Shown here: piece by piece, positions 32,896-45,547 of the stretch
Position numbering within the stretch: position 1 is the first letter of the stretch
Layout: every line of letters starts with the position of its first letter
Notes under the pieces: model-generated
What the model was told of the DNA's origin: nothing
The model's input: only the letters and a program-made list of their open reading frames with translations
Databases searched by the model: none
Program-made: the position numbers and the translations under genes
Assembly: GCA_025786725.1 (NCBI GenBank)
Contig: JAHLTZ010000001.1
Coordinates: 186,001-250,000, forward strand
Direction of reading: 5' to 3'
Length of the DNA stretch: 64,000 bases
From: Syncephalis fuscata
Lineage: Eukaryota; Zoopagomycota; Zoopagomycetes; Zoopagales; Piptocephalidaceae

Positions 32896-34607
32896 ATGCA
32901 AGTAATTACAGGACAGCAAGTATTACTTTCTGCCAACGATACACCAGGGCCACATACTATCGAAGTATGTAGTACCACGGGACGTATCATTGCCATACAC
33001 CCTCGACATGCTCTTCGGACCGACTATGCAAACCTTGACGCAAATGCATTTGTAGATGCGGCTGACCTGCTTGTCATGCCTGGCGTTGTTGATGCACACG
33101 TTCACGTGAATGAACCAGGACGCACGGCATGGGAGGGTTTTGAGACGGCAACGTATGCTGCTGCTGCTGGTAAGAATAGAGCTGGATAGTTTATCGGAGA
33201 ATTGGCGATTAATCGCAGTGTGAATCAATAGGCGGAGTGACCACGCTGGTTGACATGCCGTTAAACGCAATTCCACCGACAACAACGCCGCATCATTTCG
33301 CAACAAAGCTCGATGCAGCCAAGGAGCAATGCTGGATCGATGTAGGATTCTATGGTGGACTTGTACCTGATAATGCGGTAATATTACAAATAGCTGACAT
33401 CGTTGACACAGCAAGCTAATAATTTGCATTAGGACTCGCTTAAAGATCTAGTTAATCTAGGTGTGCGCGGTTTCAAATGCTTTATGATTGAAAGTGGCGT
33501 CGATGAATTCCCTATGGTTACTGAGTCAGATATTCGACGAGGACTTGAGCAGCTTCAGGTAAATAATAGAAAAGCAATACATTAGAGTATATAACAGTTT
33601 ATTGATTATAACGACAGGGAACAGACATAGTTATGATGTTCCATGCAGAAATGGAACATGAATCCGAACCGATCAGTGCTAGTGGTGATGAGACACATTA
33701 CAGCACATTCCTGGCAAGTCGACCCACTTCACTGGAGTGTCGAGCCATTGAAACGGTCATTCGTCTGTGTCGTGAATTTAAAACTGTAAAATGCCACATT
33801 GTTCATTTATCGGCAGCTGATGCTTTGCCGATGATTCGTGCAGCCAAGAAAGAAGGCTTGCCATTGACGGTTGAGACATGCTTTCACTATCTAACATTGA
33901 GTGCCGAGCAGATTCCCACAGGTAAATTGGTAAATAATATTATCTATATGACTGTATTAACATGAATAGGCGCAACGCAATTCAAGTGCTGCCCACCTAT
34001 TCGCGATGACACCAATCGTCAGTTGTTATGGGAAGCATTGGCTGATGGCACCATTGATTTTGTTGTATCCGATCATTCACCGTGTGTAGCTGAGTTGAAA
34101 CGACTTGATCAAGGCGATTTTATGAAGGCGTGGGGTGGCATTGCCTCACTTCAATTCGGCCTTCCTTTGCTCTGGACCGAGGCATTAAAGCGTGGCCATA
34201 GGTAGGCAGTTTAGTTGTGCTGAATAAGCCATTGCTAATAACAGTTATGGCTTATAGTGTACAAGATCTAGTACGTTGGCTATCAACCCATACGGCAAAG
34301 CATGCAAGTCTATTCAATCGTAAAGGATCACTTGCAGTTGGTAAAGATGCCGATATTGTTATTTGGGATCCAAAGAGTAAATTTACGGTAAATTATTATT
34401 CAATATATTTTATTATTAATGTTGACTGATTTATGTTGTGTATAGATAACTCAAGATACGATTCGTTTTAAAAATAAGGTGACACCCTATATGAATCAAT
34501 CTCTGAATGGCCGTATTCATCGCACGATAGTTCGAGGAAAAACCGTATATTTAAATAATGATAGTAATGAGGCAGTGGCCAAACGTATTGGTATGTTATT
34601 GGTGTAA
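32896..34607 (+). CDS. DAL1: Allantoinase
   Basis: Seven exons run from the start at 32896 to the TAA at 34605-34607. All metal-site signatures of the cyclic amidohydrolase family are visible: [14 protein letters not shown] (two His), [18 protein letters not shown] (Lys to be carboxylated), MMFHAEME (His), [14 protein letters not shown] (His) and FVVSDHSPC (Asp). [28 protein letters not shown] and the C-terminal [16 protein letters not shown] are allantoinase hallmarks. The enzyme hydrolyses allantoin to allantoate in purine-nitrogen use, in the cytosol. All exon joints keep frame (for example CAT AG|T GTA at the sixth intron). Its stop lies only 22 nt from the stop of the convergent YbaK-domain gene, so the two 3' UTRs must overlap. 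Confidence 0.95.
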
Positions 34608-34629
34608 GGAATCTATTACATAAACTGTG

Positions 34630-35622
34630 TCAAGAAAGATCAGCTACAAAGCAGCCAGTTTTTTCAATAAATTCACCGACTGCCATAGCATTTTTCCAAT
34701 CTACATCACCTGCACCCAAGTAAAATACAGGAGGCTAGTATGCCATCATGAGTGTTTATATAGTTGATACTTCATTCCAAACTTACTGCTAATTGACAAA
34801 TACTCTGACTAATAATGATCGGTAGCAATGTAGTTGTGCCTATCGATAGTTTTGATTAGATTGAACTTTATGTTATGTCATTCACTCACCAATAGGCGAT
34901 ACGCCATTTTTATCAAATCCAGTTAGTTTAAACGACATTTCTGCATCGGCCAATCTGAAATTATAGTATTGGCGACTGATTTCTTTGTTTTTTAATGATC
35001 GCACGTAATTCATTAATTTTTGTGTATTTACGGAGGCTACATACTAAACTTTGCCAATTAGCTAGTCTGAATAGTGCCAATACAGCCATTACTTTTACCT
35101 GAGTAATAACGCAATAGTAACGAGAATTTAAGAAATCTAAGTTTAAAATTAGTATTGCTATATTATACAATCTATATTAATCTTACCACTTGTATCCAAC
35201 ACGGTACAGCGTGTGTTTTCAAACACAACCGTTTTGCATAAGTGACGTATTGATGGCGCTACTAATTGCGCACTATAAATAAACACAATTAACATACAAG
35301 ATGCATTTTAATGGCGTACTTACACTCGTTCTTGAAGTGTCCAGTCATAATAATTGGATGGTACTTTATAGAAACGAGCGTGGAGGCCAAGTCGTTGAAT
35401 TGCCTGCCATACCTACATATTCAATAAGCTACTAGTTACTAGAACATAAATAAGTAATTACAGTTTGCACAGTATCTGGTGCGTCGTTTTGTAGTTGTTC
35501 TGTAGAAGCTAGCTCTTTAAAATGCACCATATACACGTCTTGTATACATTGTGTAGCATAGAGTTCTGCCACTATCTCGGTTAACCGCTGGACACGGCGA
35601 CTAATATCAGTAGTATTACTCA
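34630..35622 (-). CDS. YbaK/aminoacyl-tRNA-deacylase-domain protein
   Basis: Start at 35622, stop TGA at 34632-34630. About eight exons all join in frame, including joints TQ|YVASVNTQKLMNYV and GVSPIG|TTTLLPIII. The features fit the eukaryotic YbaK-domain family. There is a helical N-terminus, then VPSNYYDWTLQERV, PSIRHLCKTVVFENT, a strand SRYYCVITQ, FRLADAEMSFKLTGF, KNGVSPIG and the final VFYLGAGDVDWKNAMAVGEF. Bacterial relatives (YbaK/ProX) remove wrongly attached amino acids from tRNA. The substrate of the fungal/plant proteins is not established. Length (about 250 residues) is typical. Confidence 0.82.
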
Positions 35623-35831
35623 TTATTATAGAAAAAGAAATACGTAAAAAGTGTTTAAAATTTTATTAGCTATTATTAGTGTCGATGTAAATATTTAATA
35701 GGTGGATTACAAAATCTGATATTTACGGTGGCTCAATGATTGTGGTGTAGTTACACTAATTAAAATAAAGAAAAAGAAAAAAAACTTTTATTCGCTGTTC
35801 TTTCACACTTGCCTGCTTTACACTAAATAAC

Positions 35832-38277
35832 ATGGGGAAATTCAAGAAAGAATCAAGCCGAGTGTCGCGCGACACGTCCGATCGCCCGGGCAATACCCGG
35901 CTAAAGGGCGAGAACTTTTATCATGACAAGAAGAAGGTGCAGTATTTGAATATGCTACGCGGTGGCCGTGCCGTACGTGATCGTGATGGCAATATTGTCA
36001 AAGCGGCCGCCTTCCAAAGCACCGAGGCACCTGTAGCACGCGTGGCACCCAACCGTAAATGGTTTGGTAAGTAAAATGTTTCATATACTAAAGTGCATGG
36101 TATATTAATATTGAATACTGTTAGGTAATACTCGAGTTATCGGCCAAAAAGAATTGCAATCATTTCGGGAAAAGCTTGGTGATGCTGTTAATGATCCATA
36201 CCAAGTATTACTGCGCCGTAACAAATTGCCAATGGGCTTGCTTCAAGATGCTAAATCGGTAATAATATAACATTGAATAGTATCTAATAGCTATGTATTA
36301 AACACGTATCTATTATTACGCTATTGTACCATTTAACTATTTAGGAGGCTCGTGTTCATGTTTTAGAGACGGAAAGTTTCTCACATACATTTGGACCAAA
36401 GTCACAGCGTAAACGTCCTAAAGTACTTGCCGCTTCGATGGACGAGCTTTTAACGTCAGCTGATGATTTAATTGGTAGGTTAAGGACATAACAAATAGCG
36501 TAATTATTGATTAACATATTAATTACTACCACATAGAAACCTATGATCAGACTAAAGATAACGACCTTGTTGCTAATAACATCTTTGATCATTTGGATTT
36601 GGCACGTGAATCGGTATTTCTTAAGGGACAGTCTAAGCGTATTTGGGGCGAACTCTACAAGGTTATTGATTCATCGGATGTTGTTGTGCATGTACTCGAT
36701 GCGCGTGACCCACTTGGTACACGTTGTCGCAATGTGGAGACTTATTTAAGCAAAGAAGCTCAGCATAAACATCTTATATTTGTATTAAACAAATGTGATT
36801 TAGTGCCAACCTGGGTAACCGTAAGTTGGATAACTTTCATAATAGTCATTATCTTACATACAGTTATTCTATTAAATAGGCACGATGGGTTAAAGTACTG
36901 TCAAGGGACTATCCTACACTGGCCTTCCATGCTTCAATCAACAATTCATTTGGCAAAGGTGCACTGATCCAGCTACTACGACAATTTGGTAAACTTCATG
37001 CCGATAAGAAGCAAATCAGTGTTGGCTTTATTGGTTATCCAAATACTGGTAAAAGCTCAATTATCAATACATTGCGTAAAAAACGTGTATGCTCTGTGGC
37101 ACCTATTCCAGGCGAGACAAAAGTATGGCAATACATTACGCTAATGCGTCGTCTCTATCTTATTGACTGTCCGGGCGTTGTCTATCCTGACCCAAAGGAT
37201 ACTGAAGCAGATATTGTTTTGAAGGGCGTTGTAAGTGTTTGAGCTTTATAACGATATATCTATTGATTATTGTTGAATAGGTACGTGTGGAGAACGTAAA
37301 AAATCCAGAAGATTATGTCGCACCTATGCTTGAACGTGTTCGACCCGAGTATATACGTCGTACCTACGATATACGTTCATGGACGGATCACGAAGATTTT
37401 CTATCTAAATTGGCCAAGAAAAGTGGCAAATTATTAAAGGTAGCTAACTAGATGGATAGATAGTATATGCAACTAAATGTTTATTTGTATAATAGGGAGG
37501 TGATCCAGATCTTAGTACAGTAGCCAAAATGGTATTAAACGACTGGCTACGTGGCAAAATTCCATTCTACACTGCTCCACCAGAAGATGAAAAGCCAGCA
37601 AGTACTGAAGTAGAGCAGCAAGAGCAATCAACATTAGAAACAGCTGATATGGAAATTACAGTTGAAAAGGTAATCATTTAATATGGTTTATAGATTATAT
37701 ACTAATAAGTGGATATGTATAGGGCAAGATTGGTGTGGAGCAACTGTTCCGTAAAATCCAAGTAACATCTACTTTCTTGCCAGAAGATATGAAGCGAGAG
37801 GATGTTGAGAAGGAAGAAGAAGCCAAAGAGAAGATGGCCAAGGAAATGAAGCAAGCTCGTGAACAAAACAAGACTGCAGCCAAGATAGCAGCTGTAGAGA
37901 AAGAGGCTGATAACGACGACGACGACGATGATATTCCTGATTGGGATGAAGTATTTGGCAGTGTAGTAGGCGAAGAAGTGGCAACACTCGGTGGAGTACC
38001 TGAACCATCTAACGATAGTTCAGAAGAGGAGGAGGAAGAAGATAACGATGAAGCAATGGAAGAAGACGACGACGAAGAAGACGGTAAACGACGCAAGACG
38101 GTAAAAGCACCGCGTATGACCACGAATAAGCAAAAGGTTGGCAAAAACTATTATGATACAGCCAATGTAAAGAACCGTAATCGTGATAAGAAGCGACCAG
38201 AAGATCCAAATAAATTGGCCAAGCGTCTAAAAGCGACCAGTGTTAGTGCTGAAGGCAAACAAAAGCGTCGTCGTTAG
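35832..38277 (+). CDS. NOG2: Nog2 (GNL2), nucleolar circularly permuted GTPase
   Basis: About eight exons. The N-terminal NGP1NT domain starts [20 protein letters not shown] and includes [15 protein letters not shown]. The GTPase motifs come in permuted order: LNKCDLVP (G4) and [10 protein letters not shown] (G5), then [14 protein letters not shown] (G1), GETKVWQYI (G2) and [10 protein letters not shown] (G3). This is the hallmark of the YlqF/YawG family. The C-terminus has an acidic stretch (DDDDDD and EEEEEE runs) and ends in a basic KQKRRR. Nog2 is a nucleolar/nuclear GTPase acting on pre-60S particles before export. No frame problem was seen. Confidence 0.96.
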
Positions 38278-38483
38278 AATTATTCGTTCATTTAATTATA
38301 ATTAAATCATTAAAGATTTTTATTTTTATCACTTTTATTTTATTTTTTAGCCAATTACGTTAATTGGCGTTTAAACAAACTGCTATCAGTGATTTGAACG
38401 TAGCATTATTGAGTTGCTTGTTTAAGAGCTTCTATTACTTAACGGCTATTTTCTGTTTTTTATTGATCTATACATTGGTCAAA

Positions 38484-39491
38484 ATGAGTAAACATCTTAT
38501 TGCTATGACGCAGGAATCGCTGTCGATGCTTAAGCGCGAGAGCCAACACAGTAAGTATATACACTATTTATTATCTAGCTGGTTATCTATAACATTTATA
38601 ATATATATAGTGTGGGATATGGATGTGGTGAAGCGTGTGCCTGAACAGCTGCTATTTCAATTTAGCAATGAAGTAGACTTGAAGAACTGGATTGTAGGCA
38701 GCGATAAAGATATTGGCGGTGAGTTGTTTATTGATGGCAATATAGAGCAATTTCTGTTTATTTATCATGAAAACTAGGATATTCATCGGCAATGTTTGAC
38801 TGCACTAATGATGGTAAAGCACGATTCCATGGTAATATATCATTGCAATTGCCGGAAAAGCGTAAAGATTTTATTCGAAGTGGCTATGCGGCCATTAGAT
38901 CCAAGGTAGACTATTACGCGTATGCTATTCATTATAGCATTGCTAACTAATAGATTTACAACTGTATATTGTATAGGAAGCACGCCATACACTATTGGGA
39001 TCTGGTTTCTGGGATACAGGCATATTTCGCTTTCTAGCACTACGTGTACGAGGTGATCATCGTCGTTATATGGTTAATATACAAACCGATGGTATTATAA
39101 AGTCGGATCTTTTCCAACATCGGCTTTTTCTACGCCGACCTGGTCATTGGGAGAATATTATTGTAAGTAACTGTGTATATGTATATAGCTATTTAGTAAC
39201 AACAAATATTGAATCGACTAGATTGGTTTCCGTGATTTTACTCAAACAAATAATGGCCTTATTCTACCAGAACAAATGCAAATGCTACGTGAACGCGTAA
39301 GAACCATTGGATTCTCAGTTATGGATGGACAAGAAGGACCATTCTCATTGGAGATTGATTCAATTAGAATGATGAATACAGAAGATACAGATGGTGATGT
39401 CGATATTCAGCCAGATGTTTTAGATACATCAACAGACTATACTGCATCGACTAACAGTAATAATAGTAATAGTAATAGTAACCATTTGTAA
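38484..39491 (+). CDS. CIA30: CIA30 family, complex I intermediate-associated protein (NDUFAF1)
   Basis: Start at 38484 (SKHLIAMTQESLSML). About six exons follow. The CIA30 domain is clear: LLFQFSNEVDLKNWIVGSD, GGYSSAMFDCTNDGKARFHG, GYAAIRSK, DTGIFRFLALRVRGDHRRY, HRLFLRRPGHWENI, IGFRDFTQTNNG and RERVRTIGFSVMD. The tail is Asp/Asn/Ser-rich. Such proteins chaperone assembly of mitochondrial respiratory complex I, so the organism likely keeps complex I. No strong presequence is visible, which is a point to check. The gene follows Nog2 in the same direction with about 200 nt between them. Confidence 0.9.
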
Positions 39492-39793
39492 TCATTTGCG
39501 TATTAAAAATAAATCAATATACACATAAACACACATTATATAATAATAGAGCAATGTAGCAATATACTAGTAATTATCTCCATTGGTAAATGCCCGTATG
39601 TTTATTCACGGACTAGATCAAACAAATAAAAACCGTTGGAACCACCTCCATACAATTTTCCTTTTAACTTGATCCTACAAATAAGTAGTGTGTATCCATC
39701 GACAAGTGTGTTTATAGATGTTATAGATCAAGATCCATGAATCTACAACCCAAGACTGTGGTGAATGCAGAATGCAAGCATACACGCACGCAT

Positions 39794-40678
39794 TTAGGAC
39801 TCGAGGATATCACGGAGACGACGCACGGTACTGCGCACGGTAGCAGCAGCAGTCGTGCTAAATAACGACAACAAATAGAGTAGATGCATAATGTATAAGT
39901 ATCCTAACACTGGTAATTGTATAACAAACTACTTACGAGACAGTCCAGGCACCACCGGCCATGGTCTTGCGGCAGGCACGGCACTGCCAGATACCGACAG
40001 CTTGACGCTTCACGGCATCCTTACCGCAGAAAGTGCAGGTATAACGCGAGTGCTGCGTAATTTCCATCTTCTTGATCTGCTTACGCAACGACGAACCGTA
40101 ACGAGTACCGTACTTGCCGGTGATTCCGACCTTACGAGTGCGCTTGGCCTATTGACATACAATTTAAATACACGCGCCATTATCATTATTAGTTACTGAT
40201 ATATAATATTAATTATAACCAATCCATATAATCCATGTCTATACAGCACTATAATAGCGTATATCCACACTACACATATAGCCATTTATGTTATATGCTA
40301 TATACTTTACGTGATGCTATTAGCAATCAATATAAGTGCATATAAGCAATATTATAGTATCCATTCCATAGTAGCAATCTAGCTTGTAAATAGCCAATTA
40401 CTGGCCCATTGTAACGTAGAACAGGTAAAAGAGCGAGTATAACAAGTCGCTAGACTTATGCTCAATGTTTGACGTTTATCGTTGTCATTCTGTACTAAGC
40501 ACTAATACTTTCGCTCGCTTTCTCCTTCTCCGTCTTATTCTACCACAACTACTGCTATTACAATAAGCCCATGGCTAAATACATCAATCGATTGATACAC
40601 GGATGGATGGATGGATGGATGCATAGATGGATGGATGCATAGACATGGATGCTGGATGATTCATTCAGTATTTACCAT
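39794..40678 (-). CDS. RPL43: 60S ribosomal protein eL43 (L37a)
   Basis: Three exons. Exon 1 contributes only the ATG (40678-40676). A 527-nt intron follows (40675-40149), then exon 2 (40148-39937) and a last exon ending at TAA 39796-39794. The 92-residue product starts [18 protein letters not shown] and has the zinc ribbon CTFC...CRAC with [19 protein letters not shown], then [12 protein letters not shown]. The size and motifs match eL43 fully. A long first intron directly after the ATG is common in fungal ribosomal protein genes and can carry expression control; here it includes a pyrimidine-rich tract near 40510-40550 and ATGG repeats near 40605-40640. Confidence 0.95.
40600..40642. repeat. 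ATGG microsatellite in eL43 intron 1
   Basis: Tandem GATG/ATGG units interrupted by GCATAG, just inside the 5' end of the first eL43 intron. Confidence 0.8.
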
Positions 40679-41077
40679 GGCGTCGAGTTAATTCGGTATC
40701 TTCCAAACGCGTTGGGTAGAACGGGGAAGAGAAAGGAGAGGAGGATTCTCGCTTTTGGGTGGTGAGTGGTGCTCCGTATGTGGCATGCGAGTCATCCATC
40801 CCCATCACACTAATAAAACAGTTACCATTAATTACTACAATTGTTACAATTACTACAATTACTATTAATTAGCCATTTACTGGTTTTAATTGATATTACT
40901 ATTTAATTATTTTAATGAATTACTTTTATTGGTGGATGCAACAACAATAATAATCATAATAATAACAATAGCAATTATATTATTAACTAAATATCAAATA
41001 CTATAAAAGTATTGGTATTAGTAGTGGATTTTAGTAAAAATAGATAGTTAAATAGCTGAAATGAATAAAGAAAAGTA
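40679..41077. promoter_or_regulatory. eL43 promoter region / 3' flank of chitin synthase gene
   Basis: This 399-nt gap lies upstream of the eL43 start and downstream of the chitin synthase stop. The stretch next to eL43 is richer in G and C (about 40680-40800) and the remainder is AT-rich. No specific site can be named. Confidence 0.4.
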
Positions 41078-44000
41078 TTAACGTCGTCTTGGTGTCTCAG
41101 GACGTTCTCGTGGACCACGTGGGCCACCTACATTACTACTGCTGCTATTATGATGAAGTTGTTGCTGGAAACTTGTAGCGCTTGAGGTAGGGCCACCATT
41201 ATAGATGTCGGTACGGGCAATAGGCATGACCGGTGGTGTATATGGTGGTCGTGCTGATAAAGGATCATTGGCCGGTGTCGCTATCTCTGGTCTGGCTAAT
41301 GATGGATCGGCCATTGTACTATTACTGTTACCGTTACTATTGGTCATGGCCATTGGTGTAGGCATCTTTAATGCTTCAGAAGCATAGGCTAGCCAACTAG
41401 CTGTTGCTTCAGATACTACACTACCCGCTGCCGGTGCAGGTGTATACGGTGCCGATATCTGGGAATAGCCACCCTGCAATGGTGGTTGTGATTGCACTTG
41501 TAGTGGTGATGATGGCTGCTGTAAACCGGGTATCGTGGGTTCTGGCATCGATAGTATCGGTGATTTATTAGCCAGTGGATCCGTATAATTATTGCCGTAG
41601 GAACTACTGCCCGATGATGGTGTATGAGCATATTGGTTATATTTGGTTGATTGTAATGCTGGCTCATTCAATTCGGTAATCGTTGCTTGCTCACCACGTC
41701 CTTCAGCGACCCATTCATGCCAGCGTCTCATTGGAATGACGTCTGGATTAAATTCATCGGTTTTGCCACTACCATCACCATGGCCGTGTCCATCGGGACC
41801 GTCAACTTTACGGGTGGCACCCCACGAGAAGTCATCAAAGTGCCAGAAAGCATAGAGTGGCAATACAAGATTCCAAATAGGCATACCAAGTAAGAATACA
41901 CCCATCCACATGACATAAACACCTTTACGCGTGGTAACAAGTACTAGGAATGCTTGTAGCATAAGTGTGGCACACATAAATAGCAAGGGTAGACCGACAT
42001 CAGTACCGGCAATACCGGCGACAATAAGGGCCAGTAAGAATATAAATGCCGCCGGCAATACCACTGTACCAATCAATTCCATAAATATAATAAAATGCAT
42101 CGAACAGCAAAAGATGCCACACAGTTCCGGTACTAGAATAAGTTCAAATAAATTATGAATGGTCGAGTTAATCCATCGTCGTCGTTGTGAAAGCAGTACA
42201 CGGAATTCATCCGGTACAATGGTGCGACAAACGGCCTTTGGTACATAGATCATTTTACGCTTAGGAAAGGCTCTAAGCATAAGTGTTGTCAAGTAGCGAT
42301 CTTCACCGAGTAGCAATAAATTCTTCTTGTGTAATGTACTTGTATCGTTCGAGCTGTACATTTCTACAATATCCGGATTGGCCAATACAGGCACTGAATA
42401 GCCATCACATTTGGGTGCCTTAATACGATACATACAGAAACAACCGGGTAAACAAGTAACGCCGCCAAAGATCGATTCAAATGCTTTGCCTAAATGATGC
42501 GAAATGTAATACTCGTATACTTGAATCATAGTAACCCATGATTGGCGCTTATTAGCCACTCTTGTCTCGCCACATAGGCCCATGACAGTGGGATCGCGTT
42601 CCATGGCAGCTACCATATAGCTAAGAGCATCGGGCATAACAAGTGTATCTGCATCGACCATCAGTACCATGTCGTATTTATCAGGCGTAACACCAGTCAA
42701 TGCTCTAGTTTTTTCAATAGATCAAACTCGAGTGGTGACATACGTTCGTTGAATATAACTTTACGCATCCACTGCATTAGAATAAGCTGTGAGTCGCGTT
42801 TCCACGATTGCCTGCTTTAGCACCAGCAGCCCGTTCTTCAGTGTACCGCATTTAACAATAAGTAAATACGGTAAACGGATATCATCACAGGCATAATGAC
42901 CAATATAGACTTGTGCCATATTATGTTGTTTAACACCATCGCCAATGGCCGTGTAGGAACAAGGTGTTGGTGTGGGCGAATTCGCATCACGATCCATTAC
43001 TTTGATACACAGATCAGGTGTACTTGCTCCATTGCCGGCACCCGTAACATCACCGTCAGCAATAACGAATAATAGACGATGGTCATTTGAGTAGGTCGAT
43101 CGAGCAATGGAGTCAAATGTTGTACGCAATCCGGCTTCATCCTCGGAATAACAAGTAACGAGTACCATAACGTGGGATATCGTATCTGGTGATCGGGCCT
43201 TGGTTGATACTTTACCGAGTTTCCAGCCTAAGAACCAATCAAAAGCAATGGCTGCCACAAATTTGATAATTGTAATAACAATAAGAATAGTGGTAAGAGC
43301 AATTAATAGTAAATTACTCGCAAAACAGCCAATCGTGGTGCCATCAACACGTCCTACCATAAATTGTGCATCAAGACATGGTACAAGATCAATTAGCGTT
43401 TGGCTACGAGATATTTGACGTGATGCATCTCGACCAGCCATTTTACGTAGTTCTTCAGTGGCATCATTACCCAAATACGTTTGATTTGCGTTGAAATACG
43501 AGCTTAAATCATATACTCGTTGATTGTAGACAAGTAGACTTTTACTCTCTGTAATATTATCCCACGAAAAGGCTACGTATTGATCGGTTGCATAGCGCAT
43601 CAAATCTTGTTGAGATGCGCTACTTGTGTGACAGTGCAAGTATTCTGCCTTGCTAATTGATGGACGGGTCGTTTTTAATTGACAGTCATTTGCTGTGCTA
43701 CTGGTAGGCCAGCGTGAACAGCCTGACTGTTGTCGTTTAGGTGGGAAAAAGTCGCTGATATCATTGCCATAGAGTGGATCAATAACAGTAGCCAAATCTT
43801 TATCAGTTAAAGGTGTAATGGGTCGATGAAAGCCGTATTCAAAATAGTCGCCCAGATGGAAGAGACGACCACGTACTGTCATGTATCGCTGACCAATAGC
43901 TGCTTCTACGCCGTGTTTTGCCGCTACTTCAGCAGGGAATATAGGCACAATCTTTTGACAGGCCAGACCGGAAAAGCCAAACGTAAGAAATCCAAGTATG

Positions 44001-45547
44001 ACTGAAATACAAAGAATAATAAAACATAGAGCAACCTTCTCCCGCCATGCTTGTCGAACATTGGGTGCACGTAGTCCGCCAAAATGGTTCAAAGCTGCGT
44101 CAAAACAACAGGCTGTTATGCCTTGTGAAAACCATTCCCAAATGCCACGTTTCTCTGTGCCATTAGAAAGAAGTCGTGAGGCGGCTGCAGCGGCTAATCC
44201 ACGTGGATGTTGACGTAGATTCGTATAGGCCATTTGTGGATAATTAGCCTGAGCCTCTAGTGCACCACCTAGGCTGCCGGGTGAAGCGGAAAAGTTTGGC
44301 AAATTATTACGCTGACGTCGTGAGCGTAGACCAGTGCGTTTGGCTGTTGCTTTACGTGGTGCCCGTCCCATGGTGGCCCGTCCCTATATGCATTAATAGC
44401 GTTGTGTTAATTACTGGCTATTTTATTGCAGCTATTATTCAACTTACTGGTCCACTGGCTCTTGTACGATTACTAACAGCACTGCGCATCTCAGTGACCT
44501 GTGAGCCACTACCACCACTAATGGCCGATTTGACTGCACTGGGTGACGGTTTATTCGGCAAAGGCGGTGGTCTTGGCGAAGATGAAGCTGGCATGGCTGT
44601 TCCAGATACGGGCACTGTATTCGCTTCAGCTCTTTCTGGATAAGCGTTATTGCCACTGACCGATACAGCCGATCCAGCCACGCCATATCGTAATGTAATG
44701 CCTACATCTGAGGCATTTGTATGCTGATGTTCTGTCAATAAAGCAATTACTTCATCACATCCAGCTTCCCGTGCCAATACATAGGCTGTCTTGTCATTAC
44801 TGGTAGCCACTGATGCATCGGCACCATGATCAATTAGAACTTGCAAACGGCATATCTACCGGCATAAGCAGCCAACATTAATGCTGTCCAGCCATACTAT
44901 AAATAAATGAATAAACACATAGATTAATATCACAATTGTAAATAGCCCATCTCCATACCTGATCGGTTGTATTAAGCTCGGCTCCTTGTTCGATAAGATA
45001 CTGCACGACTGAAGCGTGGCCTTCATAACTCGCAAGCACCAAGGCTGTTTTGGCCGAGTTATCTCGATGATGTACATTGGCTTGCGCTAATTCAACTAGA
45101 ATTTCACATACAGATCGATGTCCATTATAGGCAGCAATCATAAGCGGTGTAATTTGCTCATTATTGCCTAAATCAACCTTGGCGCCCGCACGAACAAGTA
45201 CCTCAACTGATGAATGATTACCGGCTGCACTGGCTTGGTAGAGTGCTGATTCACCGTCATTATCTAATAGTTATAGCCATATCCATTAATATACCATACT
45301 ATAGCGTATATATAGTCGATTATAATGAATATTTACCTCGAAGATCAACATCTACATTACGCATATTGCAAAAGTATTGAACTACCTGGTCCGCACCCGG
45401 TGTTTGACAGGCCACCATTAATGGAGTACGGCCATCTCGATTACGAATAATATTAAGATCATAGGGCGACTTTTCCAATACATTTCGGATAAGGTCAACA
45501 TCATTGACTAGGATGGCATCAAATATGGTTGCCACCGGGTTGCTCAT
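41078..45547 (-). CDS. Ankyrin-repeat / class IV (Chs3-type) chitin synthase fusion
   Basis: Exons 45547-45337, 45263-44959 and 44896-44448 encode six ankyrin-like repeats ([81 protein letters not shown]) and a Pro/Ser linker. A 64-nt intron (GTAAGT...CATATAG) then leads in frame into exon 44383-41078, a full chitin synthase. That part has two N-terminal membrane helices, a cytochrome b5-like segment ([20 protein letters not shown]), [69 protein letters not shown] and C-terminal helices. Total is about 1,420 residues against about 1,000-1,200 for usual class IV enzymes. Frame breaks near 44846, 42841, 42800 and 42711 each look like one missing base in or next to a homopolymer; the last three cancel out. 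The enzyme makes cell-wall chitin from UDP-GlcNAc at the plasma membrane. Confidence 0.88.

Follow-up and report, generated by a model that had tools for sequence, protein, structure and literature searches.

Ankyrin repeats joined to a division II chitin synthase in Syncephalis fuscata and other early-diverging fungi

One predicted gene carries ankyrin repeats and a chitin synthase

We analyzed a 64,000-nucleotide window of the genome of Syncephalis fuscata (Zoopagales, Zoopagomycota), comprising bases 186001-250000 of contig C1 (1,005,272 bases), and searched the whole 28.95-Mb assembly alongside it. A single minus-strand gene, 45547-41078, runs from a start ATG at 45547 to a stop at 41080-41078 and encodes a division II chitin synthase with an ankyrin array at its N-terminus and a Pro/Ser linker between the two. 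The start, stop and three introns agree with those given in an earlier note on this DNA, whose intron and exon junctions proved exact. The features of the gene are as follows.

45337..45547, minus strand: exon 1, with the start ATG, N-terminal cap and first ankyrin repeats; its Ank_2 match (45344-45517) is on its own under the cut-off
45264..45336, minus strand: intron 1, 73 nucleotides, GT..AG; exons 1 and 2 are in frame across it
44959..45263, minus strand: exon 2, central ankyrin repeats; Ank_2 match at 44962-45243
44897..44958, minus strand: intron 2, 62 nucleotides, GT..AG
44448..44896, minus strand: exon 3, last ankyrin repeats with an internal frame break, then the Pro/Ser linker
44384..44447, minus strand: intron 3, 64 nucleotides, GTAAGT...CATATAG, linking the ankyrin and linker exon to the chitin synthase frame
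44369..44371, minus strand: internal ATG in the context GCCACC-ATG-G, just past the joint; a possible second start without the ankyrin repeats
41078..44383, minus strand: exon 4, chitin synthase through to the stop; the frame is broken at about 42700-42830
43352..43576, minus strand: CHS4 (chitin synthase 4-like) domain, within exon 4
41708..43186, minus strand: Chitin_synth_2 domain, with D-A-D, EDR and QRRRW motifs

To identify domains, a Pfam search was run on five separate pieces of the gene. The tandem ankyrin repeats of exon 2 matched both Ank (8.8e-20, 70 bits) and Ank_2 (4e-19, 69 bits), and the synthase part matched CHS4 (6.5e-14, in the N-terminal part of exon 4) and Chitin_synth_2 (2.1e-35 and 1.6e-164). 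The Chitin_synth_2 score of 675 bits, against a curated cut-off of 27, places the enzyme in division II. The second part of exon 3 alone had no Pfam match, none of the five pieces matched a myosin motor, and DEK_C had no Pfam match in the gene.

The earlier note had proposed an in-frame fusion across the 64-nucleotide intron, and this is supported by the lack of a stop, by two public protein models and by dozens of joined relatives. The second frame of exon 3 closes on a codon boundary and exon 4 continues as GRAT-MGRAP without a stop. The best protein match, P0001, a public S. fuscata protein of 1386 residues, spans both parts and contains the catalytic motifs MVDADT, GEDR and QRRRW. In the S. 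plumigaleata homologue P0002, which like P0001 is a gene prediction and whose model starts within the linker, 25 of 30 residues upstream and 55 of 60 downstream of the joint are identical to those of S. fuscata. Conservation of 25 of 30 residues before the joint would be unexpected of an untranslated leader, and the linker exon looks to be coding and joined in this second species also. Taken with the many joined relatives described below, this makes two separate genes unlikely. Around the D-A-D motif, P0002 is missing residues that can be read in frame in the window; a faulty gene model is the probable cause.

Frame breaks in the assembled gene

Although the joint is in frame, the gene as assembled is not open throughout: its reading frame is interrupted once in exon 3 and again in the core of the enzyme, which the earlier note had missed. 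The exon 3 break falls inside an ankyrin repeat, which is read in frame 0 and then in frame 2, and the catalytic core is broken at about 42.70-42.83 kb, where two stop-to-stop frames meet. At these places P0001 has one ankyrin repeat that is too short and a run of residues read out of frame, and the position of the GNRGKRDSQ motif lies in the broken stretch and is unreadable. A second copy of window positions 32993-42927, 99% identical, occupies a 15.3-kb contig, C133, which ends inside the gene and is also broken in the catalytic-core stretch. Between 41078 and 42927 the two copies differ at 14 positions, and the only two indels both lie within the broken stretch, which suggests that the frame breaks are sequence error rather than true decay.

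Ankyrin chitin synthases are widespread in early-diverging fungi

The earlier note had suggested searching fungal proteins for ankyrin repeats together with a chitin synthase domain, and we did so in two ways. One search used the read-through protein as query, with words along its full length (best 120 of 3547 matches examined); the other used an alignment of 23 ankyrin chitin synthases, with words from the first 500 residues (best 120 of 1106), and gave an incomplete list from which some members of its own query alignment, such as P0027 and P0034, were missing. Among the 217 pooled proteins listed, 150 matched a synthase profile built from the 23 proteins, 132 matched an ankyrin profile, and 65 matched both. 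Named sources of the 65 included Blastocladiella emersonii, Syncephalis, Coemansia, Basidiobolus ranarum, Entomophthora muscae, Calcarisporiella, Endogone, many Glomeromycotina and many Mortierellomycotina; four source species were looked up, and the lineages of the rest are those to which we take them to belong. No named protein with both parts from Dikarya, Chytridiomycota or Mucorales was among the matches listed (best 120 of 3547 and best 120 of 1106).

Outside Mortierellomycotina, D[AS]DT, GEDR, QRRRW and the GET motif were each present in 47 of 49 ankyrin chitin synthases, and the exact GNRGKRDSQ in 40 of 49. The two proteins that missed motifs were P0136, whose synthase match extends no further than residue 690 of 1022, and P0147, a partial record according to its source. 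With motifs intact in 47 of 49, most of the ankyrin clade should, as judged from sequence, be competent for chitin synthesis.

Many of these proteins carry the public name "ATP-dependent RNA helicase" (P0006, P0017, P0027, P0034 and most other listed Coemansia proteins), apparently a copied annotation error. In Glomeromycotina, a second ankyrin chitin synthase branch stands beside the main copy (P0028, P0030, P0032, P0035, P0066 and P0121; Shimodaira-Hasegawa-like approximate likelihood ratio test (SH-aLRT) support 100 in the quick tree described below).

The claim that this is not a standard architecture fits passages of published surveys, in which the additional domains of division II enzymes are myosin, Cyt-b5 and DEK_C, with ankyrin not among them (PMC8778642, PMC4734345, PMC5122149); the gene is not unique, as the spread of its relatives through early-diverging fungi shows. 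The word "ankyrin" is absent from the main text of PMC4734345 and PMC5122149. In these surveys, some early-branching genes are left unplaced as "others" (PMC4734345), class IVc is restricted to Mucoromycotina, and an outlying class has one Mortierella verticillata member (PMC5122149). Among the papers listed in a literature search that covered few subscription journals, none was seen to describe ankyrin-bearing chitin synthases.

The ankyrin clade is sister to class IV-type synthases

To place these proteins, we built a quick tree from 70 rows, 30 of them drawn from the 65 ankyrin chitin synthases, and a careful tree of 55 rows. In the quick tree, all 30 ankyrin rows fell in one group of 37 (SH-aLRT 94), and the seven rows without an array mean that, as labeled, eight changes are needed. 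Five of the seven models (P0002, P0003, P0024, P0025 and P0026) begin at most 176 residues ahead of the synthase profile; P0033 and P0039 have about 713 and 116 residues before it and no array. The careful tree comprised 24 clade rows (19 with arrays), five Mortierellomycotina rows, 23 other CHS4-type synthases and three myosin synthases, with no ascomycete row. The clade together with Mortierellomycotina had support of 100/98, and the other CHS4-type synthases, including those of the basidiomycetes Rhizoctonia and Fomitiporia, 100/95. Blastocladiella branched early and most other lineages formed their own groups, with some deep forks weak; the best explanation of this pattern is that the ankyrin clade is old, mainly vertically inherited and sister to class IV. 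A Rozella protein without an array lies at the base of the clade, grouped with two ankyrin-bearing proteins. On these sequences, one gain of the array and a few losses would be the simplest reading, and true losses are possible.

The earlier note had assigned the enzyme to class IV. As that assignment implies, it is a division II synthase with a CHS4 domain and no myosin motor; its clade is sister to the basidiomycete class IV-type group and the window gene does not fall inside it, a comparison that rests on the basidiomycete rows P0118 and P0125, which we take to be class IV. The gene thus resembles class IV (superclass IV, division II; Chs3 type) in having Chitin_synth_2 and CHS4 (PF22997), no myosin motor and the same catalytic motifs, but differs in its N-terminal ankyrin array and separate sister clade. 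Like the myosin-motor classes V and VII, it has an N-terminal module added to a division II synthase; unlike them, it has ankyrin repeats in place of the myosin head, and it lies far from them in the trees. The myosin-like domain helps the localization of classes V and VII, according to the relevant part of a survey (PMC4734345).

The S. fuscata genome contains three CHS4-type loci and several myosin synthases, with Myosin_head found in the paralogues. It has at least 48 Ank_2 matches, two of them in the window gene; the other 46 listed are all more than 10 kb from any listed chitin synthase match, the nearest being about 16 kb away (contig C79). Sel1-repeat genes, sought as possible Chs4-type activators, gave 26 matches at several loci.

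Predicted fold of the ankyrin array

In a structural model of a relative, P0010, the array adopts an ankyrin solenoid fold of seven helix pairs. These correspond to six repeats, the number counted in the earlier note, plus an N-terminal cap. In a second structural comparison of the P0010 model, the 50 rows listed were ankyrin-type chains; for the synthase half, matches came from Foldseek only. The array resembles ankyrin-B/G, gankyrin, FEM1C and DHHC17, with 24-29% identity over the aligned part, a likeness of fold that implies no common partner. We know of none of these proteins as part of a glycosyltransferase.

Mortierellomycotina relatives lost the active site and kept the array

To examine the Mortierellomycotina proteins, we aligned 16 of them with 24 others. 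D[AS]DT, QRRRW, GNRGKRDSQ and GET were found in none of the 16, and EDR, judged by eye, was kept in 12. A search from one Mortierellomycotina protein gave 57 matches, from which 21 were dropped (two active Calcarisporiella synthases and 19 ankyrin-only proteins) and 36 kept, 32 of them named (P0137-P0145, P0148, P0149, P0151, P0155, P0164, P0165, P0201 and P0218-P0237). Q[QR]RRW, GNRGKRDSQ and GET[KR] were absent from all 36; D[AS]D occurred anywhere in the domain in six and EDR in 25, and 35 had an ankyrin match. By our own reading, hydrophobic peaks flank the catalytic part on both sides in 31 of the 36. Five Mortierellomycotina rows nest inside the ankyrin clade of the careful tree, on a long branch of 2.13. 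No active ankyrin chitin synthase from Mortierellomycotina was among the best 120 of 3547 matches, where a Mortierella synthase without an array (P0120) was present.

The two halves of these proteins differ in conservation. In 12 Mortierellomycotina proteins, median pairwise identity was 83% (76-97) for the array and 46% (35-84) for the synthase half, and all 66 pairs had the higher value for the array. Among 12 active clade members the array had a median of 46% and the synthase half one of 62%, and in none of the 66 pairs was the array ahead. Both sets were hand-picked, the Mortierellomycotina set being restricted to proteins in which array and synthase part are both long. Because the active members come from several phyla and the Mortierellomycotina from only one, the contrast within pairs is comparable and the absolute values are not; at a 70% identity threshold the Mortierellomycotina rows count as a single effective sequence. 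In the pseudoenzymes, the array seems to be the part kept by selection. In six gene models from several Mortierellomycotina (P0139, P0140, P0151, P0230, P0232 and P0237) the pseudo-synthase is joined to a TBC domain (PF00566), representing either merged neighbors or a real fusion.

Alternative explanations

We considered whether the gene could be two adjacent genes mistaken for one, an ankyrin protein stopping at 44441-44439 and a chitin synthase starting from the ATG at 44371. The ankyrin frame does reach a stop two codons beyond the intron donor, and that ATG sits in GCCACC-ATG-G, but the same frame is conserved in S. plumigaleata upstream of the joint, both parts occur in one protein in the public model and in dozens of relatives, and the gap between the parts is only about 70 bases, all of which makes this explanation extremely improbable. 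The same internal ATG, around which the residues RATMG are identical in S. plumigaleata, could instead yield a second product from one gene, an ankyrin-less synthase from 44371 beside the full protein, and the array would then be optional. Around the start codons of 25 long open frames, a rough sample that includes duplicates and this ATG, the consensus was no more than weak, which leaves the Kozak-like match with little meaning in this genome, and we regard two products as unlikely, with some chance of being right. That the locus is a decaying pseudogene is very unlikely: the interrupted frame of exon 3 and of the catalytic core, the latter broken in C133 too, speaks for it, but D-A-D, EDR and QRRRW are retained, and the indels that separate the copies within 41078-42927 are confined to the broken stretch, as sequence error predicts.

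A further explanation concerns the clade as a whole, whose chief role would be scaffolding, with the array and membrane anchor forming a platform and catalysis secondary. Mortierellomycotina proteins, which retain the array, the CHS4 domain and membrane helices without an active site, speak for such a role. Elsewhere, however, the catalytic motifs are kept in 47 of 49 proteins, and in the 12 active members compared the enzyme is more conserved than the array, which leaves this explanation distinctly unlikely for the clade.

A proposed built-in docking module for chitin synthase

We consider it probable that the gene encodes one membrane protein, in which the ankyrin array serves a competent division II chitin synthase as a built-in module for docking or regulation. 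From the computed architecture, joint, clade and motifs, the predicted fold of a relative and the unusual conservation of the array in Mortierellomycotina, we infer a model in which about 250 residues of ankyrin repeats would lie on a cytosolic N-terminus, followed by a flexible linker and then by an active family 2 chitin synthase. The array would bind a partner and thereby place the synthase or switch its activity, by analogy with the myosin-like domain of classes V and VII. Such a tethering or regulatory role would be in keeping with the relatives that lack an active site, whose ankyrin half is the better conserved.

Several observations weigh against this proposal. It rests on gene predictions and sequence comparison, and the gene as assembled has frame breaks. 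In the careful tree, five of the 24 clade rows have no array: P0002, P0003 and P0026 are late-starting models, and P0033 and P0039 have an array-less N-terminus. The P0010 model places its domains loosely (predicted template modeling score 0.60), and its topology is ambiguous because of a shorter third peak of hydrophobicity near residue 385. By Foldseek, the whole model superposed poorly on solved chitin synthases (template modeling score by model length 0.22-0.26, root-mean-square deviation 6-18). The array of active members is less conserved than the enzyme, so the partner may differ among lineages.

More broadly, the ankyrin clade may represent a third division II branch in early fungi, beside class IV and the myosin synthases, that was lost before or within Dikarya; in Mortierellomycotina it would have become a membrane pseudoenzyme kept for its array, probably as a subunit that regulates or places other synthases. 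We hold this wider proposal tentatively, at a little under an even chance. With the active site gone and the array kept, nature seems to have separated the two functions in the Mortierellomycotina proteins. The clade extends to arbuscular mycorrhizal fungi, and many of its members are hidden under the ill-fitting helicase name. To our knowledge, the placing of chitin synthesis in early-diverging fungi is poorly known, and a docking module fused to the enzyme would give a direct handle on it, through whatever the array binds.
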